Part shown: positions 25 through 33,139 of the stretch, one piece after another | Layout of the letters: every line of letters starts with the position of its first letter | How positions within the stretch are numbered: the stretch's first letter is position 1 | Assembly: GCA_016932915.1 (NCBI GenBank) | Contig: JAFGBY010000057.1 | Location: forward strand, 1 to 34,511 | From: Acidobacteriota bacterium | Lineage (GTDB): Bacteria > Acidobacteriota > DATKUA01 > JAFGBY01 | Reading direction: 5' to 3' | Length of the DNA stretch: 34,511 nt | Notes under the pieces: model-generated | Database searches by the model: none | What the model saw: only the letters and a program-made list of their open reading frames with translations | Told to the model about the DNA's origin: nothing | Program-made: the position numbers and the translations under genes

Positions 25-1152
25 ATGCGATATTTTCTGGTTAATTTGGCGGGAATTCTGCTTCGGTTTATTCCCATGAAGGCAAAAACCGGCCTTGTAA
101 AGATCGGTTCGCCAACCAAGGATTCGCCGGTTTTACTGACCGGTAATTACATCCTTACTGTTTCCAGGGTAAAGAGGGCTCTTCGGGAGATGGATGTGTA
201 CCTGTTGATAGCAAACAGTGATGGAATAAATATCTGGTGCGCTTCAATGGGAGGGTTATTTACAAGTAAAGATGTTATCCAGATAATTTATGACTCGGGG
301 ATAGATAAACTTGTAAAGAAAAAGAAGATAATTGCCCCACAGCTGGCGGCATCAGGTCTCGAGAAGAAAGAAATCAAGAAACAGACAGGATGGAATATAA
401 TATGGGGCCCCGTCTATGTCCGGGATATAAAAGCTTATCTTTCGGCAAATCTTCATAAAAGCCCTGAGATAAAGAAGACAAGTTTTCCTTTATTATCCCG
501 TCTGGAAATGGCTGCCGCATGGGCTTTTCCTGTTTCTGTTTTTATCGCACTTTGTTGTCTACTGTTCTGGAACAGGGCTATTCTTCCTGCGATAACTCTG
601 ACATGGTTTTTAACCCTGCTTCTGTTTACTTTTTTTCATCAGTACAGCAGATTTATTAAAAAACGTGGACTTGAATGTGTGGGGAGAAGGGTACGGTTTG
701 CCAGGCTGATGATATGGTCATTGATTATGATTGTTATCACTATCCGGGCAGAGCTCTTTGGGTATCTTGATCCTATCAGTATGATCAAGGCGTCGGTTTT
801 ATCTCTCATTATTGTGATCGCATCAACTATTGATACACTCGGATTTGCGCCGGGCCACAAGAGCAGCCTTCATCCTGATAAGTTTAATATAGTTCGAGTG
901 GATTCAAAAAAATGTAGCCTTTGCGGTGAATGTGTGAATGTCTGCCCGGCGGAATGTTTTGAATTGGATAATAAAAAACTGAAAATACCAGGGGCTTCCG
1001 TGTGTGTGCAGTGTGGAGCTTGCATTATACAATGTCCATGTGATGCTCTTTCATTTTTTACTCCGGATGGTAAAAGAATTGATCCGGATGAAACGAGACA
1101 ATTTCGGTTGAATCTCTCCGGTAGCAGGTCTGTGGAAATTAAAAAAAGTTAA
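25..1152 (+). CDS. Fused HgcA-like (corrinoid/CFeSP-type domain + membrane helices) and HgcB-like (2x[4Fe-4S] ferredoxin) protein
   Basis: N-terminus GLVKIGSPTKDSPVLLTGNYILT...SDGINIWCASMGGLFTSKDV...IIAPQLAASGLEKKEIKKQTGWNIIWGPVYVRDIKAYL follows the HgcA corrinoid-domain pattern. About four hydrophobic segments follow, then CSLCGECVNVCP and CVQCGACIIQCP ferredoxin motifs. Confidence 0.8.
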   Translation: MRYFLVNLAGILLRFIPMKAKTGLVKIGSPTKDSPVLLTGNYILTVSRVKRALREMDVYLLIANSDGINIWCASMGGLFTSKDVIQIIYDSGIDKLVKKKKIIAPQLAASGLEKKEIKKQTGWNIIWGPVYVRDIKAYLSANLHKSPEIKKTSFPLLSRLEMAAAWAFPVSVFIALCCLLFWNRAILPAITLTWFLTLLLFTFFHQYSRFIKKRGLECVGRRVRFARLMIWSLIMIVITIRAELFGYLDPISMIKASVLSLIIVIASTIDTLGFAPGHKSSLHPDKFNIVRVDSKKCSLCGECVNVCPAECFELDNKKLKIPGASVCVQCGACIIQCPCDALSFFTPDGKRIDPDETRQFRLNLSGSRSVEIKKS

Positions 1153-1156
1153 TAAA

Positions 1157-1678
1157 TTACCAGGTTATCTTATATATACATTTCTTCCCGCCGGTTTTTC
1201 TGCATTCATTCCCTATTTCATAAATAGCAGCGGATTTCTGAAATCTTTTCGCCATTTCCAAATACACTGTTTTATCAAATTCACAGGGGTATGGTGTGTC
1301 GGATTCTATTGTGATCAAATTTGGCGAAGTAATGTCAACATCAATTGTCGAATTATCATCACAGTGATGTTCATGATATTTCTCATTCAATATACTGAAA
1401 AGTTGTACTATATCGACATCAGGTGGAAGTGGAGCTCTATGCCCGACTGTCTCTGCGATTTTTCTTACCCCGTCTTCTTTTATCAATTCATAAGTTTTAT
1501 TTATCATTCTGAGATAAACATCCATTGGATACCATTTCTCCGGATCGATTACTCCGAGCTTGACATCCTCCAGGACAATTCGAGCTATCTCATCGACGGC
1601 AAGGGACTCAGCAAATACAGCTATCACGTCACCTTTGATTTTTGCATCGGGATTATTAGAATTACATATCACCTTCAA
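1157..1678 (-). CDS. Small V4R/H-NOX-like domain protein, distant paralog of the tandem array at 16.9-19.4 kb
   Basis: 173 aa; shares NPDAKI.G at the N-terminus and PCEFD...GNECR..G..KCIYKITW at the C-terminus with the four tandem paralogs. Start appears to be TTG. Confidence 0.7.
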   Translation of the reverse strand: MKVICNSNNPDAKIKGDVIAVFAESLAVDEIARIVLEDVKLGVIDPEKWYPMDVYLRMINKTYELIKEDGVRKIAETVGHRAPLPPDVDIVQLFSILNEKYHEHHCDDNSTIDVDITSPNLITIESDTPYPCEFDKTVYLEMAKRFQKSAAIYEIGNECRKTGGKKCIYKITW

Positions 1679-1844: not shown

Positions 1845-3587
1845 TTACTTTTTTAAAGTAATATTAAGTTCATCGAGCGCTTTAGTGCCGACTTCACTCG
1901 GGGTGTCGGAAAGCGGGCAGTAAGCCGAAGTCGTTTTCGGGAAAGCGATGACAGCTCGGATTGAATCTTCCCATGCGAGGAATGCAACAATCCTGTCCAT
2001 ACCAAAAGCAATTCCACCATGCGGAGGAGCGCCGTATTTAAGAGCTTTTAAAAGAAATCCGAACTTTTCTTCAGCTTCCTCTTCGGATATCCCTAATGCT
2101 TTAAAGACTTTCTTCTGAATATCCGGCCTGTGGATTCTTATCGAGCCTCCGCCTAGCTCTGTACCGTTACAAACCAAGTCATAAGCCTGTGAAAGCACGG
2201 ATTCCGGACTGGTTTCCAGCTTATCCAGGTCTTCTTCCCTTGGGCTGGTAAATGCGTGATGGGTTGCTGAGTATCTCTGCTCTTCTTCGCTCCATTCGAA
2301 GAGAGGAAAATCGTAAACCCAGAGGAAATTAAATTTATTTTTATCGATAAGTTCCAGTTTTTCACCGGTTACGAGACGCAGGTGGCCGAGGACTTTAGAA
2401 GCTTTGAGGAAACTATCGGAGACTATCAACGCAACATCACCGGTTTTGGCTCCGGCAGCAACTGCCAGCGTCCGGGTTTTTTCCTCACCCAGTGTCTTGA
2501 GTATCGAGGATTTTACTTCTGTCTCTTCCATCTTTATCCATAGCAGACCCTTAGCGCCCATCTTCTTGGCTTCTTCTGTCAGCTCATCGATGACTTTTCG
2601 GCTCCATTCGCTTGCCCCTGGGGCGACGATCGCTTTAGTGACATTGTTTTCTCCCTTGAACATATCGAGGCCAGTCTCCTGTGCTGCTTTGGTTATATCC
2701 ACCAGCTCTATCCCGAACCTGGTATCCGGCCGGTCGGTGCCGTAGCGTTCCATCGCTTCCTGCCATGTCAGGCGAGGGAATGGGGGAGAAAGTTTAACAT
2801 CGATTAAATCCCATAACTCCACCATTAGGCCTTCGATTATCTCGAAGATATCTTCCTGTTCGATGAAGCTCATCTCGGCATCGATCTGTGTGAACTCAGG
2901 TTGACGGTCCGCGCGGAGGTCTTCATCCCTGAAGCAGCGAGCCATCTGTATGTAGCGGTCGAACCCGGCAACCATCAGTATCTGTTTGAATATCTGTGGC
3001 GATTGCGGCAGGGCGTAGAATTTACCCTTGTGGATTCTAGATGGAACGATGTAGTCCCTTGCTCCTTCCGGGGTTGATTTATTAAGTATCGGTGTCTCGA
3101 TATCAATAAAGTTATGGCGTTGGAAGTAATTTCTCACTTTCATCACAGCTTTACTGCGCAGTACCATTGCATTCATCGCTTTTTCGTTGCGCAGGTCAAG
3201 GTAGCGGTATTCGAAGCGCAGTTCTTCCGATGCATTCTCGGCGTCGCTTATCACGAAGGGCGGCACTTCGGATTTGCTGAGTACGGTAAGGCCTGTAGCT
3301 CCCACTTCGATTTCACCGGTGGACATGTTCGGGTTTATGTTTTTCTCTTCCCGTGCGCGTACCTGACCCGTTACTTCGATAACGTCCTCCATACGGAGTT
3401 TTTTCGCGGCTTCGTAGAGTTCAGTTTTTTCGTTATCGAAGAAAACCTGTACCACGCCGCTGATATCACGTAGATCGAGGAAGAGCATCCCGCCGAGGTC
3501 GCGGGTTCTCTTTACCCAACCGTTTAATACAACATTTTTATCCAGGTCTTTTTTAGTAACTTCTCCGCACCGGTGAGTCCTTCTCAT
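1845..3587 (-). CDS. aspS: Aspartyl-tRNA synthetase
   Basis: MRRTHRCGEVTKKDLDKNVVLNGWVKRTRDLGGMLFLDLRD; QSPQIFKQILMVAGFDRYIQMARCFRDEDLRADRQPEFTQID; GGIAFGMDRIVAFLAWEDSIRAVIAFPKT: class II AspRS signatures. Confidence 0.98.
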   Translation of the reverse strand: MRRTHRCGEVTKKDLDKNVVLNGWVKRTRDLGGMLFLDLRDISGVVQVFFDNEKTELYEAAKKLRMEDVIEVTGQVRAREEKNINPNMSTGEIEVGATGLTVLSKSEVPPFVISDAENASEELRFEYRYLDLRNEKAMNAMVLRSKAVMKVRNYFQRHNFIDIETPILNKSTPEGARDYIVPSRIHKGKFYALPQSPQIFKQILMVAGFDRYIQMARCFRDEDLRADRQPEFTQIDAEMSFIEQEDIFEIIEGLMVELWDLIDVKLSPPFPRLTWQEAMERYGTDRPDTRFGIELVDITKAAQETGLDMFKGENNVTKAIVAPGASEWSRKVIDELTEEAKKMGAKGLLWIKMEETEVKSSILKTLGEEKTRTLAVAAGAKTGDVALIVSDSFLKASKVLGHLRLVTGEKLELIDKNKFNFLWVYDFPLFEWSEEEQRYSATHHAFTSPREEDLDKLETSPESVLSQAYDLVCNGTELGGGSIRIHRPDIQKKVFKALGISEEEAEEKFGFLLKALKYGAPPHGGIAFGMDRIVAFLAWEDSIRAVIAFPKTTSAYCPLSDTPSEVGTKALDELNITLKK

Positions 3588-3599
3588 TTCAAATTTTCC

Positions 3600-4127
3600 T
3601 TATATTTCCATCTCTTCTATAACTTTTTTATGTTCTTCAGCCATTTCGACATATTCCATGGCATTATTTTTCATTGCTTCCAGTTCCTTCTCGGTTAGCT
3701 TGCGGAACGGTTTCGCCGGGACGCCTATAGCCAGGTACCCGGCGGGGATTGTTTTACCTTCAGGCACGAGTGCACCCGCGGCAACCAGCGCGCCGTCTTC
3801 TACTACCGAGCCGTCCAGTAATATCGCGCCCATCCCGATAAGGCAATTATTGCCGATCGTACAGCCGTGAAGGGTTACGTTATGCCCTACGGTTACGTAA
3901 TCACCGATGTTCACCGGCGCGGTCTCCGGCGTAACGTGGACGGATGTGCCGTCTTGTATGTTCGAGTAATCCCCGATCTTTATATAATGTATATCCCCAC
4001 GAACGCTCGCAAATGGCCAGACTGAGGAATGTTTTCCTATTGTTACTTCGCCGATCACGGCGGACTGCGGGTCTATATACGCGGTTTCATCTATAACCGG
4101 GTTTTTGCCTTTGTATGGGCGTATCAT
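3600..4127 (-). CDS. Gamma-carbonic anhydrase-like left-handed beta-helix (hexapeptide) protein
   Basis: IGEVTIGKHSSVWPFASVRGDIHYIKIGDYSNIQDGTSVHV...VGHNVTLHGCTIGNNCLIGMGA. Start placed at the ATG at 4127 (MIRPYKGKNP), preceded by AAGGAGA, not at 4187. Confidence 0.93.
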   Translation of the reverse strand: MIRPYKGKNPVIDETAYIDPQSAVIGEVTIGKHSSVWPFASVRGDIHYIKIGDYSNIQDGTSVHVTPETAPVNIGDYVTVGHNVTLHGCTIGNNCLIGMGAILLDGSVVEDGALVAAGALVPEGKTIPAGYLAIGVPAKPFRKLTEKELEAMKNNAMEYVEMAEEHKKVIEEMEI

Positions 4128-4252
4128 TAACAATCTCCTTAAAAAATCGTGAAGATTGATTGAATCATAAAGCCCGTTCTTTATCAAGGCATGGTTATAG
4201 GATTATTGGTGCGGGTTCAAATCTTCTTATCTTAATTGCACCACTGGAAATT

Positions 4253-4290
4253 TCAGATCGCCGCGGTCGCTTTGCTCTCTCGCGATGACG
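4253..4290 (-). repeat. Diverged copy of a CGTCATYGCGAG...GCGA-type interspersed palindromic repeat
   Basis: Reverse complement reads CGTCATCGCGAGAGAGCAAAGCGACCGCGGCGATCTG, resembling the element at 4318-4370. Confidence 0.5.
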
Positions 4291-4317
4291 CTATTATTAA
4301 TTGCACGATAATACACA

Positions 4318-4370
4318 CGTCATTGCGAGCGACCTGTCCCGAGTAAAATCGAGGGGTAGCGAAGCAATCT
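4318..4370 (+). repeat. CGTCATTGCGAGCGAC...GTAGCGAAGCAATCT interspersed repeat
   Basis: cgtcattgcgagcgacctgtcccgagtaaaatcgaggggtagcgaagcaatct matches an interspersed intergenic repeat type recognised from many bacterial genomes; noncoding here. Confidence 0.65.
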
Positions 4371-4401
4371 GTTTTTTAACCAAATAAATTTCCAACAAAA
4401 A

Positions 4402-4420
4402 TCCCGCATCAAGTGCGGGA
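4402..4420. repeat. Short palindrome TCCCGCA-tcaag-TGCGGGA, REP-like
   Basis: Perfect 7-bp inverted repeat with 5-nt loop followed by TGACA, as in the element at 5884. Confidence 0.7.
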
Positions 4421-4471
4421 TGACATAAGAGTAATTTTTATGTATTATTGTTTTTATTATTTTGAGGTCAT

Positions 4472-5509
4472 ATGAAGAAAAATAAAATAGCAGTTCTGAT
4501 ACTTCTAAGTCTTACACTTCCGGTTTTTATTTTGCTGGCTGATACAGGTTATTCCGTTAAAGAGCTCATCCCGATGGAGATTATAATCGGAGACAAACCG
4601 GGTCCCGGGTTAAAAAACACACCGTTTTTTATGATTAAGAATTTCGCTGTCAACGAGGCAGGTGAGTTTTTTCTGATGGGTGATCCCGGTAGAGCCATTA
4701 CTAGGCATGACCGGGATGGAAAGTGCACCGGGACGATCGATATAGATGAGTATATTGGCGGATTTATTCCCAGCGGTTATACCCGGCAGATAGCGTTCGG
4801 TGAGGGCTCAATGCTATACCTTGTATCGAATGAGCCGGATACGATCATCGCCTTTGGGATTTTGAACCGTTCTATTGGGCTCTTCTTTCTTAGGGCAAGG
4901 CCCTCTTCTGTAGAACCGATGGGCAAAAAAATCGCTGTCAGTTTCGAAGGATTTGATCAGGATGGCAATATTATTAATATCCTTAATTCGCAAGGCAAGG
5001 TTGAGCGAAGGATTCACGGCGGTTTGCTTGCCGATTTGAAACGCGAGTCTTATTATTTCAAAAACAGTATTACATCCGATGAAAACGGCAATATCTACCA
5101 GTCTTTCAATTATTTTCCTTTTATCAGGAAGTACAACGCCAAGGGGCAGCTGTTTTACCAGAAAGAAATCGATTTAAGCAGATTGGGAGTCGATGTCGCC
5201 CGGTTCTGGAATGATTATGATTTTAAAAATCCTTCGAACCGCACGGAAGGCGGCTGGGTACAGTTCAGCCGGAAGGTTCAGTATTATAAGGGCAGGCTTT
5301 ACCTGTTGCTGTTTGATGCCGTCCTGGAACTCTCCCTGGATGGTAAGCTGTTGGAGGTCTACCAGTTGAAGAATAGCGACCCGGATTCATGGATAACCTT
5401 GGTCGATATGAACATAGACCCCGCAATAGGTGGATTTTTCATACTTTTCGAGAAGGGTGATCAAACGGGGATTGGATATTTTTCGAAAGGATTAGAAAAT
5501 GAGAAATAA
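4472..5509 (+). CDS. Secreted or membrane-anchored protein, probable beta-propeller (NHL/6-bladed-like)
   Basis: N-terminal signal-like hydrophobic segment MKKNKIAVLILLSLTLPVFILL; repeated blade-like phrases (ITRHDRDGKCTGTIDID, NILNSQGKVERRIHG, IRKYNAKGQLFYQKEID, ELSLDGKLLEVYQL). Confidence 0.65.
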   Translation: MKKNKIAVLILLSLTLPVFILLADTGYSVKELIPMEIIIGDKPGPGLKNTPFFMIKNFAVNEAGEFFLMGDPGRAITRHDRDGKCTGTIDIDEYIGGFIPSGYTRQIAFGEGSMLYLVSNEPDTIIAFGILNRSIGLFFLRARPSSVEPMGKKIAVSFEGFDQDGNIINILNSQGKVERRIHGGLLADLKRESYYFKNSITSDENGNIYQSFNYFPFIRKYNAKGQLFYQKEIDLSRLGVDVARFWNDYDFKNPSNRTEGGWVQFSRKVQYYKGRLYLLLFDAVLELSLDGKLLEVYQLKNSDPDSWITLVDMNIDPAIGGFFILFEKGDQTGIGYFSKGLENEK

Positions 5510-5792
5510 AACGGCCTGGCTGCTGATTGTTGTTTTTCTGTTGCTCTGCGGCGGTATTGCCCGCCCGGCGGATGCCAATGATGAAAAAGTAGTGGTAATC
5601 GGAAAATGCAACCAGGATGACCCGAATTCTGCGGGATGTTATGCGCCGTGTATAGGAAAATTTGGCAAGCGAGGAAATTACAGCGAAGGGAAAACCAGGA
5701 TCTGCTACTGTTACATCAAGATCGGCAATTTCATCTTCCGCTCGGTAAGTAAGGTGGATTGCATTGTAAAAAAGGAAAGTAGAAAAAAGTAA
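5499..5792 (+). CDS. Small secreted cysteine-rich protein of unknown function
   Basis: 97 aa; signal-peptide-like N-terminus (TAWLLIVVFLLLCGGIARPADA) followed by a mature part with six cysteines; overlaps the upstream ORF by 11 nt. Confidence 0.65.
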   Translation: MRNKTAWLLIVVFLLLCGGIARPADANDEKVVVIGKCNQDDPNSAGCYAPCIGKFGKRGNYSEGKTRICYCYIKIGNFIFRSVSKVDCIVKKESRKK

Positions 5793-5814
5793 TATATTTT
5801 CAAGCATGAACGGA

Positions 5815-5834
5815 TTCAGGTCTCCTGACCTGAA
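5815..5834. repeat. Palindrome TTCAGGTC-tcct-GACCTGAA
   Basis: Perfect 8-bp inverted repeat with 4-nt loop; inverted partner of the palindrome at 5844-5867. Confidence 0.8.
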
Positions 5835-5843
5835 CCCATAGTT

Positions 5844-5867
5844 GGTTCGAATCAGGAGATTCGAACC
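5844..5867. repeat. Palindrome GGTTCGAATC-agga-GATTCGAACC
   Basis: Perfect 10-bp inverted repeat with 4-nt loop. Confidence 0.85.
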
Positions 5868-5883
5868 CGCTGGTATAACGAAG

Positions 5884-5903
5884 ATTCCCGCTTTCGCGGG
5901 AAT
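5884..5903. repeat. dRS3-like palindrome ATTCCCGCTTTCGCGGGAAT
   Basis: Matches the ATTCCC-N8-GGGAAT pattern; its reverse translation gives the well-known spurious peptide SFPRKRESS. Confidence 0.85.
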
Positions 5904-6034
5904 GACAATCTTTCTAATCGCCGGGTGTGACCGGCTCCCACATTTTTAAAGATATTCCTCAACGAGAGAATAATTCTTAATATATTGAAAAACTGGGTAT
6001 CGGCAATATAATGTTCATATAAGCAGGTTAGTGA

Positions 6035-6685
6035 ATGAATAAGAAGTTCAAGTTCAAGCAGAACTATATTGCGATCGAGGGGCCGATAGGCGTCGGGAAG
6101 AGCACGCTTGTTAACCTTCTCACGGAGCGTTCGGATGCAGTGAAGGTGATGGAGGATGTCGATAACCCGTTCCTTACGAGCTTCTACAGCGACAGGCCCG
6201 GTTCCGCATTCCAGACCCAGATCTTTTTCCTCCTGAACCGCCATCAGCAGCAGCTGGAGCTTAGGCAGCGCGACCTTTTTTCGGATCTCCTCATCAGCGA
6301 TTATTTCTTTGTGAAGGATAAGATATTCGCGCATATTACATTGAACGATAGCGAGCTCAGGGTCTACAAGAAACTCTACGACCTGCTTATAGAGGATGTC
6401 CCCCTGCCCGACCTGGTGATCTACCTCCAGGCGGAGACCGATACGCTGATGAAGCGGATCAAGAACCGGGGGCGTTCCCTCGAAAAAAGCATCAACCGGG
6501 ACTACATCGACGAGGTAAATAAAGCTTACAATTATTTCTTTTTTCATTATAGAATGTCACCCTTGCTTGTGATTGATACCACGAAGATCAATTTCATCAA
6601 GGATGAAGGAATGGTGGTGGACCTCGTGAGGCAGATAAACCAGACCGAGCGAGGCACAGTTTATTATAAACCGCCGGGAGCCTGA
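6035..6685 (+). CDS. Deoxynucleoside kinase (deoxyadenosine/deoxyguanosine kinase family)
   Basis: P-loop YIAIEGPIGVGKSTL; DLLISDYFFVKDKIFA; PDLVIYLQAETDTLMKRIKNRGRSLEKSI. Confidence 0.92.
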   Translation: MNKKFKFKQNYIAIEGPIGVGKSTLVNLLTERSDAVKVMEDVDNPFLTSFYSDRPGSAFQTQIFFLLNRHQQQLELRQRDLFSDLLISDYFFVKDKIFAHITLNDSELRVYKKLYDLLIEDVPLPDLVIYLQAETDTLMKRIKNRGRSLEKSINRDYIDEVNKAYNYFFFHYRMSPLLVIDTTKINFIKDEGMVVDLVRQINQTERGTVYYKPPGA

Positions 6686-6765
6686 TGGCACCGGACGTCC
6701 AACATTCCGATGTTTTTGTTTTTCACCCTATCCCGGGTTAAAGGGAAGGGAAGAAAGGAGCAAAG

Positions 6766-7650
6766 ATGAGCACACAGACCGGGAACGGTCTTGGCAGGGT
6801 CACGATACCTTCCATCCTCAAGAAAAAATCCCGCGGCGAAAAAATAGTTATGTTAACAGCATACGACTATCAAACCGCCAGGATTCTCGATGATTCCGCA
6901 GTAGATATTATCCTTGTTGGTGATTCACTCGGCAACGTGATCATGGGCTACGAGAACACTATCCCAGTTACGGTGGAGGAATCCCTCCATTATACAAAAG
7001 CTGTCGCCCGCGCGGTGAAAAGGCTTCCGGTTATCACGGATATGCCGTTCCTCTCGTACCAGGTTTCACATGATGAAGCGCTGCAGAACGCCGGGAAGTT
7101 TTTGAAAGAAGGCGGCGCAATCGGAGTGAAAGTGGAAGGCGCATCGCCATTCCGAATCGAGACGATCAAGCGACTGGTCGATGCAGGCATTCCGGTTATG
7201 GGGCACCTCGGCCTCACCCCTCAATCGGTATACAAACTGGGCGGGTTCCGGACGCAGGCTAGGAAGCCGTTTGCTGCGGTTGATGTTGTTCGTAAATCAG
7301 TGGAACTCGAAGCTGCCGGGGTTTTCTCGATAGTACTGGAAAATATTCCGTCGGAGGTTGCGAAAGAAGCGACTGCCGCCGTAGAGATAGCGACGATAGG
7401 TATCGGCGCCGGACCGGATTGTGACGGGCAGGTGTTGGTGATAAACGATATCCTCGGATTCTCGGGGGATTTCATACCTCCGTTCGTGAAGAGATACGCG
7501 GAAATGGGTGAAGTGATCAAAGATGCTGTAAGCAGATTTTCTGATGACGTCCGTTCTGTCGCTTTCCCCGCTGAGGAACATACAACTAAAATGAGCGATG
7601 AGAACCGGGAAAAGTTTTACGAGATTTTGAGTAAAGAGAAGAAGAGATGA
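6766..7650 (+). CDS. panB: 3-methyl-2-oxobutanoate hydroxymethyltransferase
   Basis: KIVMLTAYDYQTARILDDSAVDIILVGDSLGNVIMGYENTIPVT; GHLGLTPQSVYKLGGFRTQ; IGIGAGPDCDGQVLVINDILG. Confidence 0.98.
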   Translation: MSTQTGNGLGRVTIPSILKKKSRGEKIVMLTAYDYQTARILDDSAVDIILVGDSLGNVIMGYENTIPVTVEESLHYTKAVARAVKRLPVITDMPFLSYQVSHDEALQNAGKFLKEGGAIGVKVEGASPFRIETIKRLVDAGIPVMGHLGLTPQSVYKLGGFRTQARKPFAAVDVVRKSVELEAAGVFSIVLENIPSEVAKEATAAVEIATIGIGAGPDCDGQVLVINDILGFSGDFIPPFVKRYAEMGEVIKDAVSRFSDDVRSVAFPAEEHTTKMSDENREKFYEILSKEKKR

Positions 7651-16949: not shown

Positions 16950-17471
16950 ATGGAATATCAGGCAAAAAATCCGAACGCAAAAGTTATCGGTGGGTCAATA
17001 TTGGCTTTTCTAGCTTCGTTGACCAATAGAGAACTTGGGCTTAAATACCTTGAAAAACATGGTATCACTGATGTTAAAGCTGATGGCTGGTACTCACACC
17101 AGGCATTACTTTCAGCGGAAAAAGACCTTGTGGACGCTATCGGTGTTCCAACTGCCCTTGAGGGAGTGGGAGAAAAAATACCTGATAATGCAAAAATGCC
17201 GGAATGGAAAGACATATATGAAGTCTTTGAGAATTGGACTAATGTTTATATGAACAATCACCAGGGAGATAATGAATCCTATTTTAAAGTGATTGATAAG
17301 ACAGAACACTCAATCAAAATAGAGACTAATAATGCATACTCTTGTGCATTTGACAGAGGGCTTTTCAGGGCCGTAGCAAGAAAATTTTTCCCCACAGCGA
17401 AAGTTACTGAAACGGGGAATAAATGCCGAGCAAAGGGCGATAACATTTGTGTATACCATATCGTCTGGTAA
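16950..17471 (+). CDS. V4R/H-NOX-like small domain protein, tandem paralog 1
   Basis: 173 aa from ATG 16950 (MEYQAKNPNAKV) after an AGGAGAAG RBS; C-terminus SCAFDRGLFRAVARKFFPTAKVTETGNKCRAKGDNICVYHIVW. Confidence 0.75.
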   Translation: MEYQAKNPNAKVIGGSILAFLASLTNRELGLKYLEKHGITDVKADGWYSHQALLSAEKDLVDAIGVPTALEGVGEKIPDNAKMPEWKDIYEVFENWTNVYMNNHQGDNESYFKVIDKTEHSIKIETNNAYSCAFDRGLFRAVARKFFPTAKVTETGNKCRAKGDNICVYHIVW

Positions 17472-17577
17472 GTTTAGATTTATACTATTTGTTGAGTGAT
17501 TAGTGAGGATGCAATGTGTAAGCGGAATAATATCTTATTTACGAATTTATATTGCAATCAAGAAAGACACTCAGTAA

Positions 17578-18120
17578 ATGGAGTTTAAATCAAAGAATCC
17601 TGATGTAAAAGTTTCCGGTGGCGCGATACTCGCGTTTCTCGATGCTCTCAATAATCGTGAACTCGGTCTTAAATATCTTGAGAAACATGGAATTCTTAAT
17701 ATCGAGGCAAAGAAATTCTATTCCCAGCAAGCGTTTCTTCTCACACAGAAAGATCTTGCGGAAACAATGGGTGTAGCCATCGCGCTTGAAGCTACCGGTG
17801 CCAATATTCCACTGGAGTTGCCGCCTGAAAAAGCAAAAACTGTTTTTGAAATATTTGAAAATTGGCAAAAGCATTATATGGATAATAATATTGGAGATAC
17901 TGAATCTTACTTCAGGATTATTGAAAGAGGCGAAAATTATCTCTTACTTGAAACCAATAATCCATATCCATGCGACTTTGACCGTGGTTTGATAAAAGCA
18001 TTTGCACATTTTGTTCAACCGGAAGCGAAGGTTGTTAAATGGGGCAGTAAGTGCAGATCACATGGGGATGATGCGTGCACTTATCATATAAGCTGGAAAG
18101 AAGAACTTTCCATGGATTAA
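17578..18120 (+). CDS. V4R/H-NOX-like small domain protein, tandem paralog 2
   Basis: MEFKSKNPDVKVSGGAILAFLDALNNRELGLKYLEKHGI...PCDFDRGLIKAFAHFVQPEAKVVKWGSKCRSHGDDACTYHISW plus a 7-aa tail. Confidence 0.75.
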   Translation: MEFKSKNPDVKVSGGAILAFLDALNNRELGLKYLEKHGILNIEAKKFYSQQAFLLTQKDLAETMGVAIALEATGANIPLELPPEKAKTVFEIFENWQKHYMDNNIGDTESYFRIIERGENYLLLETNNPYPCDFDRGLIKAFAHFVQPEAKVVKWGSKCRSHGDDACTYHISWKEELSMD

Positions 18121-18221
18121 TTATAATGAATTACGGTATTATATCCGGGATTAGTTCCTGCCGGGCAAAATACAAATAAATGGGGCTTTTTTTGATTTAA
18201 CAAACATTAAAGGAGAAAAAT

Positions 18222-18743
18222 ATGGAATATCAATCTAAAAACTCAAATGTCCAGGTTAGCGGAGGAGCGATTCAGGCTTTTTTGAATTCGCTAAACAATA
18301 AAGAACTTGGTATTAGATACCTGAAGCAACATGGTATTGAAAATCTTGAAGCAAATAAATTTTATTCTCAGCAGGCTTATCTTCTGGCCCAGAAAGACCT
18401 GGTAGCTGCTATTGGAGTTCCGACAGCTCTCGAAGGGGTTGGGGAAAAAATACCGGAACAGCTTCCACCTTCCAACGTTAAAGATGTTTTTGAATTATTC
18501 GAGACATGGATTAATCATTACCGAGCAAATAACCAGGGAGATAATGAGTCTTACATCAGAGTTACTGAGAAGGGTGAAAATTATCTATATCTTGAAACCA
18601 ATAATCCCTATCCATGTGCTTTTGACAGGGGGCTTATCAGGGCTTTTGCACGGAAATTCCATCCTACTGCAAAGGTGACAAAAGTCGGAGATAAATGCCG
18701 CGCAAAAGGTGACGCTGCCTGTACCTATCATATATTCTGGTAG
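18222..18743 (+). CDS. V4R/H-NOX-like small domain protein, tandem paralog 3
   Basis: MEYQSKNSNVQVSGGA...PCAFDRGLIRAFARKFHPTAKVTKVGDKCRAKGDAACTYHIFW; AAAGGAGAAA RBS. Confidence 0.75.
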   Translation: MEYQSKNSNVQVSGGAIQAFLNSLNNKELGIRYLKQHGIENLEANKFYSQQAYLLAQKDLVAAIGVPTALEGVGEKIPEQLPPSNVKDVFELFETWINHYRANNQGDNESYIRVTEKGENYLYLETNNPYPCAFDRGLIRAFARKFHPTAKVTKVGDKCRAKGDAACTYHIFW

Positions 18744-18760
18744 AGATAAATATTCTAACG

Positions 18761-18791
18761 AAAAAGGACATACTAATAGTATGTCCTTTTT
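18761..18791. terminator. Intrinsic terminator (potentially bidirectional) after paralog 3
   Basis: AAAAAGGACATACT-aat-AGTATGTCCTTTTT, perfect 14-bp inverted repeat with flanking A/T tracts. Confidence 0.85.
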
Positions 18792-18813
18792 ATTTCTAAA
18801 TTTCTTTTGCTAA

Positions 18814-18842
18814 TTGTCAACTGTGACATTATATTATATATA
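18814..18842 (+). promoter_or_regulatory. Candidate sigma70-type promoter for paralog 4
   Basis: TTGTCA (18814-18819), 17-nt spacer, TATATA (18837-18842). Confidence 0.4.
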
Positions 18843-18881
18843 CCGTGGGGCTATATTTTATGTAAATATGGAAGGAAGATT

Positions 18882-19403
18882 ATGGAATATCAATCTAAAA
18901 ACCCAAATGTTCAGGTTGCAGGTGGTGCGGTTCTTGCCTTCGTGAATTCACTCACAAATAAAGAACTTGGTCTCAAATACCTTGCAGCGCATGGCATCAC
19001 GGAGATTCAATCGGACAAGTTATATTCTCAACAAGCTTATCTTGATGCTTTGAAGGATCTGGTTAAGGCTATTGGCGTTCCGGGTGCTTTGGAAGGTGTT
19101 GGAGAAAAAATACCCGATTACCTGCCTCCGATGAACGTAAAGGATGTTTTTGAATTATTTGAAACCTGGATTAACCACTACAGGGCCGCAAACCCCGGCG
19201 ACAATGAATCATATATCAGAGTAACTGATAAAGGGGAAAACTATCTTTATATTGAAACAAATAACCCTGTTGCATGCGCTTTTGACAGAGGGCTTATCAG
19301 AGCTTTTGCTCGGAAGTTCCATCCAAATGCTAAAGTAACCAGTAATGGTGATATGTGCCGAGCCAAAGGAGATGCAGCCTGTTTATACCATGTGTTCTGG
19401 TAG
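18882..19403 (+). CDS. V4R/H-NOX-like small domain protein, tandem paralog 4
   Basis: ATG 18882 (MEYQSKNPNVQVAGGA) gives 173 aa, the same length as paralogs 1 and 3; ACAFDRGLIRAFARKFHPNAKVTSNGDMCRAKGDAACLYHVFW. Confidence 0.75.
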   Translation: MEYQSKNPNVQVAGGAVLAFVNSLTNKELGLKYLAAHGITEIQSDKLYSQQAYLDALKDLVKAIGVPGALEGVGEKIPDYLPPMNVKDVFELFETWINHYRAANPGDNESYIRVTDKGENYLYIETNNPVACAFDRGLIRAFARKFHPNAKVTSNGDMCRAKGDAACLYHVFW

Positions 19404-19442
19404 AGTAGGTATTACTTATTAATCTGCCCCACGCATAAGCAG

Positions 19443-19470
19443 GGAACATACTTTTGTATGTTCCTTTTTT
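19443..19470 (+). terminator. Intrinsic terminator after paralog 4
   Basis: GGAACATAC-tttt-GTATGTTCC followed by TTTTTT. Confidence 0.85.
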
Positions 19471-19487
19471 ATTTTATTGATTTATGG

Positions 19488-20459
19488 TTATTTAAGATCC
19501 CTTCCTTTTCCTGAATCAGTGATTGCTACAAGTTCATCCGGATAAGGATGGATATATGATTGTTCAAGAAGGTATTTGTTATCAAAGCGGATAGCCCATA
19601 CTTTGAGGATATGTATCAGAACACTCAATGGAATCCGTTCGTCTCGGTACTGTTCAATGAGGGATAAAAAATACTGTTTTTCATCCGCAGCCAGTTCTTT
19701 TTTCATTCCACCCATAGCATGCTCAAGAACATTGATATGTGAATTGAATCTCGCTGCTTTTATCAACGCGGTTTTTAATAAAGAATGATAATCTTTAAAG
19801 ATTTTTTCCACGGGTGTCTCCGGGTAGCTTGCGATTATCCTGCCCATTTCACGCATACTTGATTGATTATAAGCCATCAGAAGAAGTTTATTTGATGAAT
19901 GAAATTCCATCAGCTCGTTGATTTTTCCTGAGCCTGAGATTTTCCTGAATCTTGCCAATGTGAAAAGCCCTGTAAGAAAGTGCTCTCTTAGTGTGAAGTT
20001 TTTCAATCTGCCTTCATCCTCTATCGCTGCTCCGATAAAATATTTTAAAACTGCACCGCCGAAAAACCCGGGCGCTTTAAAAGCTGCTGCGTTTTTCGAA
20101 AATCCGTAGTAGCTCCTGACGTTTGCAATGCCGCATGACGGGGATCCAAATTTCAGTATAAATCCGTCCACATCTTGTATCGATTTAATAAAATTCTCGG
20201 TGAAGCCCTCCATCTCCTGCGTCACATCTCTGCCTGTTGCCGGCTGATAGAGATGGAAATTTTCCTTCTCATAGACGATCCTGATTGGTTCGCGTGGTAC
20301 TCCAAGCCCGATCTCGACCTCCGGGCAGATGGGGCGAAAATCAATGAATTTTTTAAGCTGTTCGATAAATTTATCCGGTATTACCTGCGCGTTATAACGG
20401 CAACGGTCAAAAGTCAGGCATTTACTGATAATTACGGTTGGTTTAGGAAAATCTCTCAT
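19488..20459 (-). CDS. DUF523 + DUF1722 (YbgA-like) protein
   Basis: IISKCLTFDRCRYNAQ...FRPICPEVEIGLGVPREPIRIV...LKFGSPSCG (DUF523) followed by EFHSSNKLLLMAYNQSSMREMGRIIA (DUF1722). Confidence 0.9.
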   Translation of the reverse strand: MRDFPKPTVIISKCLTFDRCRYNAQVIPDKFIEQLKKFIDFRPICPEVEIGLGVPREPIRIVYEKENFHLYQPATGRDVTQEMEGFTENFIKSIQDVDGFILKFGSPSCGIANVRSYYGFSKNAAAFKAPGFFGGAVLKYFIGAAIEDEGRLKNFTLREHFLTGLFTLARFRKISGSGKINELMEFHSSNKLLLMAYNQSSMREMGRIIASYPETPVEKIFKDYHSLLKTALIKAARFNSHINVLEHAMGGMKKELAADEKQYFLSLIEQYRDERIPLSVLIHILKVWAIRFDNKYLLEQSYIHPYPDELVAITDSGKGRDLK

Positions 20460-20560
20460 AAAACAACTCCGGGATTGGTATTAATATAACATAATTTTTA
20501 AATAAGGTAATTGAGTTTTTAACATGTATATAAACCGATACGGATTGGTTATAACAAAAT

Positions 20561-20580
20561 GGGGAGCTTTTCAGCTCCCC
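20561..20580 (-). terminator. Intrinsic terminator of the TauE/SafE gene
   Basis: Plus strand GGGGAGCT-tttc-AGCTCCCC; on the minus strand the hairpin is followed by ATTTTGTT, and the minus-strand gene ends at 20604. Confidence 0.75.
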
Positions 20581-20603
20581 TTATAAATTGGAAAAATGCA
20601 CAA

Positions 20604-21482
20604 TTAAAACAAGATTTTTGCGAGCGTCAGAAGTCCGAAAAATACTGTCGCGTAACTTATATACCTTCGTAACATGGATGCCGGCAACACTTTGACTGTC
20701 CAGGCTGATATCGGGACGGATAATATCCCCCCGATGGCCAGCGGCAGGGCGAGCCGCCAATAAGGCAAGCCGTAAGTGACAGCGTAGAGAGCCAGGCCTA
20801 TAATGCATACTATACCTTCAGCCATAGAAGTGATCCCGACGGCTTCTTTTTCCTGTACGCCCATGATAACCTGCCCGCCTGTGAGCAGCGGGCCATATCC
20901 GGCGCCGGATATTCCTTTGTTAAATGCTGCGATACCACCAAGGATGTAAATCTTTTTCCTGCTGTATCCGCCCAGGAATTTCTTTCCGATCATTATAAAG
21001 ACACCCATAGCAAGAAGCATTAACGCTATATAGATTTTTACGATGACCCTGGGTAGACTGATCATCAGGAAAACCGCAAGAACTGTTCCAACTAATGAAA
21101 AAAGAACGATAATCCTTACTATTCTTCGCGCTTCCGTTTTGCTGCCGAGGTCGACATTACCGAGTTTATGATGGAAAAATCCGGCTGACAATCCTGTGAT
21201 AAATTCTGAGAAAAGTATTGCCGGGATGGCATCGATAGCTTGAAAACCCAGGATGATCAGCGTGGGAGTCAATATGGTTCCGTATCCCATTCCGATCGAA
21301 GAGTCGACATATTCTGCTAAAAATGCAATACATACCAGCCAGAGCATCAGGACTTTCGCGTTATGCACCTCTTCGAGGTAGGTAAATCCTTTACTGAAAG
21401 TCAGGTAAATAAGCGCGGCGGCGCTGAGCAGCATGAATGCGACCCATATCCTTTGTATGATTGCTCTTTGTTTTTCGCTCAT
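20604..21482 (-). CDS. Sulfite exporter TauE/SafE family membrane protein
   Basis: VCIAFLAEYVDSSIGMGYGTILTPTLIILGF...GGIAAFNKGISGAGYGPLLTGGQVIMGVQEKEAVGITSMAEGIVCI. Confidence 0.93.
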   Translation of the reverse strand: MSEKQRAIIQRIWVAFMLLSAAALIYLTFSKGFTYLEEVHNAKVLMLWLVCIAFLAEYVDSSIGMGYGTILTPTLIILGFQAIDAIPAILFSEFITGLSAGFFHHKLGNVDLGSKTEARRIVRIIVLFSLVGTVLAVFLMISLPRVIVKIYIALMLLAMGVFIMIGKKFLGGYSRKKIYILGGIAAFNKGISGAGYGPLLTGGQVIMGVQEKEAVGITSMAEGIVCIIGLALYAVTYGLPYWRLALPLAIGGILSVPISAWTVKVLPASMLRRYISYATVFFGLLTLAKILF

Positions 21483-21830
21483 ATTTTTCTCCTGTCGAGG
21501 TTGATTCTGCGCAGGGAAAAATGTAGAGCCTGGTGAGATTCCTAAACGGTATACTCCTCACCTGAGGGGATTATTAGCCAGGATCGGCTGATTCCACTTA
21601 TTGCAGCTGTACCGCTTTTATTTGAGTACAGCGGCGGCAGAAGATAGCCATTCCATATATAACTTCAGTGTATCTATACTAATTCTCGAAATCAGGTATG
21701 CATTGATGAAGGTATCAGAGATGACTGAATTCGTTTTTCCCGCAACAGAATGGTAAAAACTGGTCAAGGCTTTTACCACTTTCAATTTAGGTTTTTAGGA
21801 GTTGCTTGTCAAGCGGCAACTGTTTCTTTT

Positions 21831-22925
21831 TCAGTACCTTAATACAGCGGCGATTCCGCCAATATCGGTAAGCCCCTGTATCCCCTCGGCGAATTCCACT
21901 TTGGCGCTGGTAAGCTCTGCCAGTTCGACTAGCTCTTCCGCAAGGTCGACTTTGAACACGGAATCCGAACCGCAGGCGGGGCATTTTGTGAGGTCTGCTC
22001 CGGCCCATAGGTTTTCGCAGTCCCGGCAACGGGCGCCTTTTGGGCTTGATGATTTGTTTATAAGGATTTCTTCCACGCGTCCGGTCTTCAAGGCTTCCAG
22101 GGTTTTTTCCGCACCCAGCACGGCGAGGCCGTGGCTTTTGTAGCGGGCTTTTATCTTTTTCCAGAGGTCTCGTTCCTCTGCTCTCTCGGCTTCCTCGAAG
22201 AGGCTGTAGGTTTCCTTTTCGATTTCGTTCTCGCCTTTCGAAAGGTCTATCTGCTTCTCGCCGATTACCTTGTCTTTCAGGTGTTTCGGCATCTCATCGA
22301 GTATCAGGCTGATTGTCTCCTTCGTCCCGGCGAGGATTATGCGGGAGAAATCTTCCACTTTCTCAAGTTCGGCGAGGTGGTTTACTATATCTTTAGTATA
22401 GTGTTTCAGTTCCTTGTCTCTGCGCCGTTCGTAGCGCTGTTGGGACCATCCGCCGACCTTTACATGGTTCTTGATGTCGCCGCGGATTTTTTCCTCATCA
22501 GTCATGGAGCCCATACTGACGGAGTAAATCTTCGTGGTCCGGTTATCGGTAGCGATGATAATATATGTCTCATATTCATCCTGCATCATCGCGAGCGGTT
22601 TGATATACGGTGATGAATCCACACGGAAGGCTGTATCGAATTTTAATTCCGGTTTGATAACTTCCAGCAAGTCGATCATCCAGCAGGCTATCAGGCAGAG
22701 CGAGCCGGATTTGTATTTGTGCTTCTCGAAGTAGTTATCGATCAGTTTGCAGTTCTCGGTGAAATGCTCCGCTTCATCCGGCTGTTCCTTCAGGAGCGCC
22801 GATGTCTCTTGCTTCCACTTGTCATAAGCCCTCAGGTATTCCGGACCGGAAAAGTACAACGTCACAAATGACCTCTCCCCGCTGGAAAGACCCGATAATT
22901 TCCGTAAATCAATCTTATCTGACAT
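21831..22925 (-). CDS. Bacterial eRF1/Vms1-like (baeRF-type) protein with zinc ribbon
   Basis: VKVGGWSQQRYERRRDKELKHYTKDIVNHL (eRF1 GGQ-loop-like), CRDCENLWAGADLTKCPACGSD zinc ribbon, and C-terminus LAELTSAKVEFAEGIQGLTDIGGIAAVLRY like eRF1 domain 3. Confidence 0.8.
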   Translation of the reverse strand: MSDKIDLRKLSGLSSGERSFVTLYFSGPEYLRAYDKWKQETSALLKEQPDEAEHFTENCKLIDNYFEKHKYKSGSLCLIACWMIDLLEVIKPELKFDTAFRVDSSPYIKPLAMMQDEYETYIIIATDNRTTKIYSVSMGSMTDEEKIRGDIKNHVKVGGWSQQRYERRRDKELKHYTKDIVNHLAELEKVEDFSRIILAGTKETISLILDEMPKHLKDKVIGEKQIDLSKGENEIEKETYSLFEEAERAEERDLWKKIKARYKSHGLAVLGAEKTLEALKTGRVEEILINKSSSPKGARCRDCENLWAGADLTKCPACGSDSVFKVDLAEELVELAELTSAKVEFAEGIQGLTDIGGIAAVLRY

Positions 22926-30720: not shown

Positions 30721-30778
30721 AATTAGTGTAGAGGGGCAATTATCGTTTTCCTAATTACTCTATGTGGGAAATCTCTAT

Positions 30779-33139
30779 ATGAAAAGCAGTGCTGAAAAAA
30801 TTTATTCTCTTTTAGAGCGAATCAGCGATGACAATCTGAAATCAGAACTGCTGCAGGCTTATCTTGATTTAGCAAAATATGAAAGAAAATATCATCTGCT
30901 GGAGTCCATATCTAGTGATATCATCTGGGAACTTAATAAAGACGGAGTAATAACCTACGTTTCGACAAACACCGATGCTATTGTTGGGTATACACCGGAA
31001 GAACTTATCGGTAAGACAATATTCGAATTTATGGAACCTGAAGAATCCAGTAAAATGATGGAGATTTTTCGTCAAATTGCTTTAGCAAGTGGATCGATCA
31101 TGGATCTTGAAAGTAAGGTTATCCATAAAAATGGGGATAAAGTTACATTATTAGTAACAGGTGTTCCACTTATAAATGAGTATGGGGAGATTCAGGGATT
31201 CTGGGGATTAAACCGGGATATTTCCAGGAGGCTTTTAGCTGAACAAGCTTATGAAGAACGGGAAGCACAATTGCAGAGTATTTTCCGTTCAGCGCCTGTA
31301 GGAATAGGCGTTATTTCCAACAGGATTATGCAGTGGGCGAACAAACATGTATTGGATATGTCGGGATATACATTAGATGAAATGATTGGGAAGAGCACAA
31401 AAATCTTTTATGTATCTGAGGATGAATATTTGCGTGCAGGGAAAGAGCTTTATCAGCAAATACAAAAAAACGGTATAGGAAGCGTTGAGACACAGTTTCG
31501 AAAAAAAAATGGTGATGTAATCTATGTCATTATGAGTGCTTCACCTATTGATCCTTCAGAAACATATCAAAATGTGACATTTTCAATACTTGATATCACT
31601 GAAATGAAACAAGCAAGGGAAGAGCTGCGCAGGAGCGAGTTAAAATACAGGAATCTTATTGAAACAAGTCCCTTCGCTATTACTCTGATGAATCTTGAGG
31701 GAAAAATTGTTTTCACAAACAAAAAACTTTCTCAGATGCTTGGGTATGACAAACCGGAAGAACTAATAAATATATTTGCCTTGAACCTTATTGCACCTGA
31801 TGAAAGGAAAAGGATTGAAGAAACTTTCAGGGAGGTTATAGACTCGGATTCAGTGTACTCAGGGGAATTCAAACTTCTGAAGAAAAATGGAAAAGAAATA
31901 ATCTCTCATCTTACTGTAAACCTGATCCGTGATGATAAAGGTAGGCCTGAAACAATACTGAGTATTGCGCAAGATATTACTGAGAAAAAAATAATTGAGG
32001 GTGAATTAATTAGATTTGAGAAACTCGAATCCCTGGGAGTTTTAGCCGGAGGCATCGCGCATGATTTTAATAATATTCTAGCGGCATTATTGGGCAATAT
32101 AGACCTTGCAAGGCTTTATATAGATAACAGGAGTAAGCTGGAAGAAAATCTTCAAGAAGCAGAAAGAGCTATCAGCCAGGCGACTTCATTGACTCATCAG
32201 CTGTTAACTTTCTCAAAGGGTGGATCTCCAATTAAAGAAGCCACAGATATAGTCGATATAATCAAAGAGACTTCAAAATTTATTCTCAGAGGTTCAAGCG
32301 TTGTTTGTTCAATTTTACCCGGAGAGGATATTCCACCTGTTGATGTAGACAGGGGCCAAATCAGCCAGGTGTTTAATAATATTATTCTGAATGCTGAGCA
32401 AGCGATGGATAAACAGGGGGTGATAACGATTACAATTGAAAATTGTGATAAGCTTCCTGAAAAATTTCTTATGCCACCAAACAATCATAATTGGATAAAA
32501 ATCAGTATTATCGATCAAGGCAAAGGAATTTCGAAAGGGGACCAGGAAAAAATCTTTGATCCATTCTATACGACAAAAAAAACAGGTAGTGGGCTGGGAC
32601 TGGCAAGTACACATACTATTATTAAAAATCACAATGGGTTTATCGATGTGGAATCTGAACCGGGGGAAGGAGCAACCTTCCATATATATCTTCCATCCTC
32701 TGGGGGTAAAGTAAAGCACTCAGAGAAAAATGATTTAATTCAACCTCTATTCAGGAAGAAAATTCTCTTAATGGATGATGAAGAGATGGTACGTAATACT
32801 GCGTTTGGCCTACTCAGATATCTGGGTTATCACGTGGATATTTGTTCTAATGGGGATGATGCAATTAAAATGTACCATGAAGCGTTAAAAAAAGAGGAAG
32901 CATATCATATCGTTATTCTTGATCTTACTGTGCCTGGAGGTATGGGTGGTAAAGAAACTATGGAAAAGATTCTATCAATTCATCCAGAAGCGATAGGAAT
33001 AGCGACAAGTGGTTATTCCAATGATCCTGTAATGTCACACTACAGGAAATATGGCTTCAAGAATGTAATCTCAAAACCTTACAATCTTGAACAATTAAAT
33101 AAATTATTAAATGAAACAATCCTTTCTATAGCCGGTTAA
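30779..33139 (+). CDS. Hybrid sensor histidine kinase: PAS x3, HisKA/HATPase, C-terminal receiver
   Basis: Three PAS-like modules (DIIWELNKDGVITYVSTNTDAIVGYTPEEL; IFRSAPVGIGVISNRIMQW; LIETSPFAITLMNLEGKIVFTNKKLSQMLGY); LAGGIAHDFNNILAALLGNID; DQGKGISKGDQEKIFDPFYTTKKTGSGLGL; receiver LLMDDEEMVRN...VILDLTVPGGMGG. ATG at 30779 preferred over GTG 30764. Confidence 0.95.
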   Translation: MKSSAEKIYSLLERISDDNLKSELLQAYLDLAKYERKYHLLESISSDIIWELNKDGVITYVSTNTDAIVGYTPEELIGKTIFEFMEPEESSKMMEIFRQIALASGSIMDLESKVIHKNGDKVTLLVTGVPLINEYGEIQGFWGLNRDISRRLLAEQAYEEREAQLQSIFRSAPVGIGVISNRIMQWANKHVLDMSGYTLDEMIGKSTKIFYVSEDEYLRAGKELYQQIQKNGIGSVETQFRKKNGDVIYVIMSASPIDPSETYQNVTFSILDITEMKQAREELRRSELKYRNLIETSPFAITLMNLEGKIVFTNKKLSQMLGYDKPEELINIFALNLIAPDERKRIEETFREVIDSDSVYSGEFKLLKKNGKEIISHLTVNLIRDDKGRPETILSIAQDITEKKIIEGELIRFEKLESLGVLAGGIAHDFNNILAALLGNIDLARLYIDNRSKLEENLQEAERAISQATSLTHQLLTFSKGGSPIKEATDIVDIIKETSKFILRGSSVVCSILPGEDIPPVDVDRGQISQVFNNIILNAEQAMDKQGVITITIENCDKLPEKFLMPPNNHNWIKISIIDQGKGISKGDQEKIFDPFYTTKKTGSGLGLASTHTIIKNHNGFIDVESEPGEGATFHIYLPSSGGKVKHSEKNDLIQPLFRKKILLMDDEEMVRNTAFGLLRYLGYHVDICSNGDDAIKMYHEALKKEEAYHIVILDLTVPGGMGGKETMEKILSIHPEAIGIATSGYSNDPVMSHYRKYGFKNVISKPYNLEQLNKLLNETILSIAG

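Follow-up and report, generated by a model that had tools for sequence, protein, structure and literature searches.

A tandem array of stand-alone proteins with a predicted H-NOX/V4R fold and a three-cysteine site in an Acidobacteriota genome

What do four similar single-domain proteins do when a bacterium encodes them side by side, with no output domain attached to any of them? Such a group (array A, 16950–19403) lies in the window analysed here, a stretch of 34,511 nucleotides forming contig JAFGBY010000057.1 of an Acidobacteriota bacterium (GCA_016932915.1), the sole representative of its class in the genomes searched. The original prediction, made from the letters alone, described four consecutive paralogues of 173–180 aa with a V4R/H-NOX-like character, belonging to an expanded family of stand-alone ligand or metal carriers or sensors whose copies have diverged in the ligand-facing N-terminal half. 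Here, we follow these genes through their paralogues, predicted fold, heme-binding and cysteine positions, and neighbourhoods. Added to the earlier picture are a fifth copy in the same window, four further copies in a second array (array B), the missing heme motifs, a match to the zinc cysteines of H-NOX proteins, and the loss of those cysteines in array B.

Array A and its paralogues

Array A consists of four intact open reading frames placed head to tail on the forward strand: copy 1 (16950–17471; 173 aa), copy 2 (17578–18120; 180 aa, with a C-terminal extension of 7 residues), copy 3 (18222–18743; 173 aa, the copy used for modelling) and copy 4 (18882–19403; 173 aa, 79% identical to copy 3). 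The starts at 16950, 17578, 18222 and 18882 align at a common M-E-(Y/F)-(Q/K) N-terminus, and the ribosome-binding site is good in three of the four copies and weak in copy 2. Pairwise identities are 53–79% over 173 aligned residues with no gaps, and a genome search with copy 3 recovers the other three at E values of 1e-71 to 1e-94, which excludes chance similarity. The motifs originally quoted are correct and occur in all four copies (Y-S-(H/Q)-Q-A, C-x-F-D-R-G and G-x-x-C-R-x-x-G-D-x-x-C-x-Y-H-x-x-W), and a Pfam search of the array-A proteins found no additional domain, in keeping with their description as stand-alone. A 14-bp perfect hairpin with A/U flanks, resembling a terminator, lies 3′ of copy 3 (18761–18791, forward strand; −17.1 kcal/mol, z −6.2), and a hairpin with a U tract, resembling an intrinsic terminator, lies 3′ of copy 4 (19441–19466, forward strand; z −4.6); no clear terminator was found between copies 1, 2 and 3. 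Because strong terminator-like hairpins follow both copies 3 and 4, copy 4 at least is probably a separate transcription unit.

The genome contains nine family members in total, and the family is both larger and older than the four genes first described. Copy 5 (1157–1678, reverse strand), in the same window, is a distant paralogue with 31% identity to copy 3; its listed start is a TTG at 1678, and the ATG matching the starts of the other copies ends at 1672. The remaining four comprise three tandem copies and a single one, which lie at the starts of contigs C30 and C103, respectively, with 57–75% identity among themselves and 34–43% to array A. Their strands and contig-end locations suggest that they form a single array B split by the assembly. 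In a maximum-likelihood tree all nine copies lie on the same side of a branch with good support (98/98), with array A forming a clade (98/99), the array B copies grouping together (88/98) and copy 5 on a very long branch. The tree supports one lineage-specific expansion, which is not recent.

Synonymous divergence is saturated in five of the six array-A pairs and reaches 2.1 in the sixth, with dN of 0.16–0.39; the copies are thus old and conserved, and are under purifying selection. This bears on the suspicion that strain variants of one gene were collapsed into a false array. The genome is fragmented (2.33 Mb in 178 contigs, 75.6% complete) and array B sits at contig ends, as such an artefact might have it, but array A is internal to a contig of 34.5 kb, and its levels of identity, its (near-)saturated synonymous sites and its distinct spacers leave this explanation extremely improbable. 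The proposed concentration of divergence in the N-terminal half did not hold up: identities of the N- and C-terminal halves are similar across the six pairs (0.54/0.51, 0.61/0.64, 0.66/0.59, 0.62/0.67, 0.56/0.57 and 0.72/0.86), and the N-terminal value is clearly lower only between copies 3 and 4.

Within the phylum, 14 of 396 genomes have family matches, and the other 13 carriers have one match each. The family occurs in bacteria and haloarchaea; plasmids of Haloarcula and Halobellus also carry relatives, and a Leptolinea plasmid has two in tandem. Four Marinobacter loci (L022–L025) from a scan of genome contigs were set aside as chance YELFENW matches in an unrelated protein of >600 aa. A role in phage biology or defence was dropped because searches of viral contigs, phages, PADLOC, PHROGs and viral structures returned no relative.

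Predicted fold and family membership

The AlphaFold2 model of copy 3, computed with the five window sequences as input, has a pLDDT of 87.6 and a pTM of 0.84. Foldseek gives 43 matches in the PDB at E ≤ 0.001, the best at 1e-6, and every one of them is an H-NOX domain, with TM scores of 0.6–0.71 for most and 0.69–0.71 for the best; the next structural neighbours are TRAPPC3/Bet3 (TM 0.44–0.48) and the V4R domain of MopR. Copy 5 gives a model with a pLDDT of 71, and its top matches are also H-NOX proteins, at a TM of about 0.5. In profile–profile comparisons, using H-NOX and V4R profiles built here from proteins of the same phylum, the family is related to H-NOX at P 4.7e-7 and to V4R at P 4.5e-7, its helical part aligning with H-NOX and its C-terminal part with V4R, a split that agrees with the published kinship of V4R, Bet3 and H-NOX (PMC2253512, PMC10933270). 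The family is thus modelled with an H-NOX/V4R fold, and with copy 3 closest to H-NOX and then to TRAPPC3/Bet3 and MopR, the fold named in the original prediction stands.

Membership in either family does not. The Pfam search found no HNOB (PF07700) match among the window copies, and there is none in the whole genome at E ≤ 1e-5. Matches to V4R (PF02830) reach 15.6–21.7 bits, the weak upper value being that of copy 1, against a gathering cut-off of 31. The likeness to V4R proteins, such as the MopR/PoxR sensor domains and MJ1460, consists of the fold, these sub-threshold matches and a C-terminal CxxxGDxxC knuckle of the V4R type, and the family differs further from the sensor domains in having no attached output domain. 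The best NCBIfam match is to MsvR (NF053755), a redox regulator of methanogens, and covers its V4R half only (E 2e-4 to 0.02); MsvR is defined by a helix-turn-helix together with V4R at 220 bits, whereas the window copies are bacterial, have no helix-turn-helix and score 14.6–21.4 bits. Other family members mostly match nothing in Pfam or NCBIfam. MJ1460 was among the profile matches to the PDB, at E 0.24, two others in that search (3et6 and Cas8) were judged to be chance, and phmmer found no PDB match. The myxobacterial DUF2378/TIGR02265 proteins are similar in size (about 200 aa), and a Haloarcula relative matches them at E 0.075 and 0.085, which is not significant; the window copies do not match them. 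By the families' own tests, then, these proteins are neither H-NOX nor V4R members, being alike in fold and zinc site, and the family is modelled by no Pfam or NCBIfam entry.

Two side observations concern V4R-like proteins outside the family. The same genome encodes a weakly V4R-like protein (DUF6144, MetOD1) with a signal-like N-terminus at 1090–1626 of locus L013 (genome G000, contig C23). In addition, three proteins (L050, L052 and L054) match HNOB and V4R over overlapping stretches; they are H-NOX proteins with the heme motif and V4R-type cysteines, and form a bridge between the two families.

Heme positions and the three-cysteine site

The nearest known counterparts are the zinc-type H-NOX proteins of S. 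oneidensis, V. cholerae and C. crescentus, which share with the array-A proteins the fold, the small stand-alone format and the zinc-cysteine columns; the glycine at column 74 is also kept in nearly all family members. The family departs from them in its lack of an HNOB match and in the residues that hold heme. None of the 25 members examined has the heme-propionate motif YxSxR, which is replaced overall by T/C/S-x-N/S/T-x-Y: the three columns are T/N/Y in the window copies, with few departures (copy 4 has V for Y), and C/N/Y in most relatives. At the proximal-histidine column, where the alignment is uncertain by a few residues, copies 1–4 have R or M and other members H, K, N, Q or R. Membership among heme-binding H-NOX proteins was rejected on the absence of YxSxR and of a histidine in this column in array A. 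Because the YxSxR anchor is absent, the family probably does not hold heme in the way that H-NOX proteins do.

A porphyrin might nonetheless be held by an altered ligand set, through a histidine where the proximal helix ends. Relatives outside this genome carry an almost invariant His104, and each array-A copy has a histidine at exactly one of two positions spaced by five residues (position 104 in copy 1, position 99 in copies 2–4). Together with the H-NOX fold and the imprecise alignment at the helix end, this gives such an arrangement some footing, but the complete lack of YxSxR and the R or M in the proximal column make it doubtful, and we consider it very unlikely.

Cys132 of copy 3 (codon at 18615–18617, forward strand) corresponds in the alignments to the first of the zinc cysteines in zinc-type H-NOX proteins, which is Cys139 in S. 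oneidensis (PMC7108781), and Cys159 and Cys167 (codons spanning 18696–18722, forward strand) belong to a C-R-x-x-G-D-x-x-C zinc knuckle. All three fall in the zinc-cysteine columns of the H-NOX proteins L052–L054, on which three MAFFT settings agree. Their spacing is 27+8, compared with 25+8 in the zinc-type H-NOX proteins (C139/C164/C172 in S. oneidensis, C149/C174/C182 in V. cholerae and C138/C163/C171 in C. crescentus; PMC7108781, PMC12329717) and 26+8 in MsvR, where the equivalent three cysteines (C206/C232/C240) affect redox-dependent DNA binding (PMC3729527). In zinc-type H-NOX proteins the fourth zinc ligand is a histidine or glutamine three residues before the second cysteine (PMC7108781, PMC12329717); in copies 1–5 this position is a glycine (Gly156), which makes zinc affinity uncertain. 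Most relatives have an additional cysteine at position 126 that might supply the fourth ligand; this genome's own copies have Thr or Ser there. Metal binding, as the original prediction proposed, is supported as a possibility, and ligand binding is likewise putative.

The three cysteines are kept in copies 1–5 but all are lost in array B, in which Asp replaces Cys132 and a deletion runs through the knuckle. Cysteines are also fewer or absent in the relatives from genomes G096 and G395 and from G333 and G367, and the site has therefore disappeared on more than one occasion and is not essential to the family. Such losses are known among the structural neighbours, since the zinc site of Asgard TRAPPC3 has given way to a hydrogen bond in mouse TRAPPC3 (PMC10933270), and they recall the possibility that the copies are adaptors: dimerising building blocks of the Bet3/TRAPPC3 kind, with zinc only bracing the fold and the paralogues assembling into hetero-oligomers, for which many copies would be suited. 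TRAPPC3 is the second structural neighbour; however, it shows no sequence match, H-NOX fits better (TM about 0.7), and no partner-subunit or trafficking-type genes were seen near the arrays, so that we regard an adaptor role as quite unlikely.

Gene neighbourhoods and candidate function

Array A is flanked by transglycosylase and DUF1722 genes, and none of the genes next to it encodes a kinase, a cyclase or a DNA-binding protein; the lack of an adjacent kinase or cyclase is a further difference from the zinc-type H-NOX proteins. Downstream on the reverse strand (19488–22925) are a 2-thiouracil desulfurase/DUF1722 fusion, a TauE/SafE permease and a bacterial eRF1-like release factor (baeRF family 10). 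A PAS-domain hybrid histidine kinase, a conceivable though unproven partner, is encoded 11 kb from array A (30764–33139, forward strand). At the other end of the window, a gene at 25–1152 (forward strand) is convergent with copy 5 and a few bases from it; its product is an HgcAB-like fusion (NF043039; 381.7 bits, cut-off 285) with corrinoid and ferredoxin parts of the mercury-methylation kind.

Among relatives no shared signalling partner or informative common neighbourhood was found, and two individual cases lean towards signalling. One relative (L016/L029, in genome G273) has an N-terminal PilZ fusion (E 1.6e-5, above the cut-off), a link to cyclic-di-GMP, and on the plasmid of Leptolinea sp. 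HRD-7 (3128–7352 of locus L027) a family pair directly follows a periplasmic-binding/MCP chemoreceptor, and a GGDEF response regulator is encoded close by. The Acidobacteriota genome itself encodes two GGDEF and two PilZ proteins, counting those found here.

The reading that we favour, with moderate confidence, is that the copies are stand-alone heme-less sensors of H-NOX/V4R fold that act in trans, and that array A, but not array B, has a zinc-thiolate switch. Each protein would most likely be a small cytoplasmic sensor that binds a small, hydrophobic or aromatic ligand in a pocket enclosed by the sheet together with the helical N-terminal part. The three-cysteine site would pin the sheet to the last helix, much as zinc ties sheet to helix and makes the ligand cavity in V4R and TRAPPC3 proteins (PMC10933270), and could serve as a redox switch of the thiol/zinc kind; the heme-free V. 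cholerae H-NOX and the C. crescentus H-NOX are both switched when their zinc cysteines are oxidised (PMC7108781, PMC12329717). A change of shape would then be relayed to a separate partner, in the way that stand-alone bacterial H-NOX proteins act in trans on kinases or on cyclic-di-GMP enzymes (PMC7108781, PMC12329717). The fold, the cysteine correspondence, the loss of the heme motif, the expansion and the purifying selection are computed results; zinc, ligand, redox switching and partner are what we infer here, and on the best reading array A and copy 5 would be redox-capable and array B not. A more specific version, in which the copies form a multi-channel set with array A reading redox state through cysteine-bound zinc, array B reading ligand only, and both sharing trans partners, is put forward tentatively and seems unlikely as it stands.

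The main rival, which we rate as somewhat improbable, is that the proteins are carriers or chaperones handing over a hydrophobic or tetrapyrrole compound, with the copies specialised by cargo and the zinc structural. For stand-alone V4R proteins in the pathways of bacteriochlorophyll and bilins a carrier role has been proposed, and V4R pairs are found in bilin gene clusters (PMC10151467); the single-domain architecture, the palmitate or phenols in the cavities of relatives (PMC10933270) and the position of copy 5 beside a corrinoid HgcAB-like gene all fit it. Against this, neither array A nor array B is surrounded by a biosynthetic cluster, and the PilZ fusion and chemoreceptor neighbour point to signalling.

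H-NOX, V4R and Bet3 have a fold in common, but there are few examples of the steps between heme sensor, zinc-containing ligand sensor and trafficking subunit. The family identified here occupies this ground: its helical half ties it to H-NOX and its zinc knuckle to V4R, and the heme anchor is lost. It also flags a bacterial and haloarchaeal group for which Pfam and NCBIfam have no model. If the copies do form a multi-channel sensor set, the repertoire would have been built by duplication instead of by fusion to output domains. With the zinc site kept in array A and lost in array B, one genome offers a natural side-by-side test of what that site contributes.
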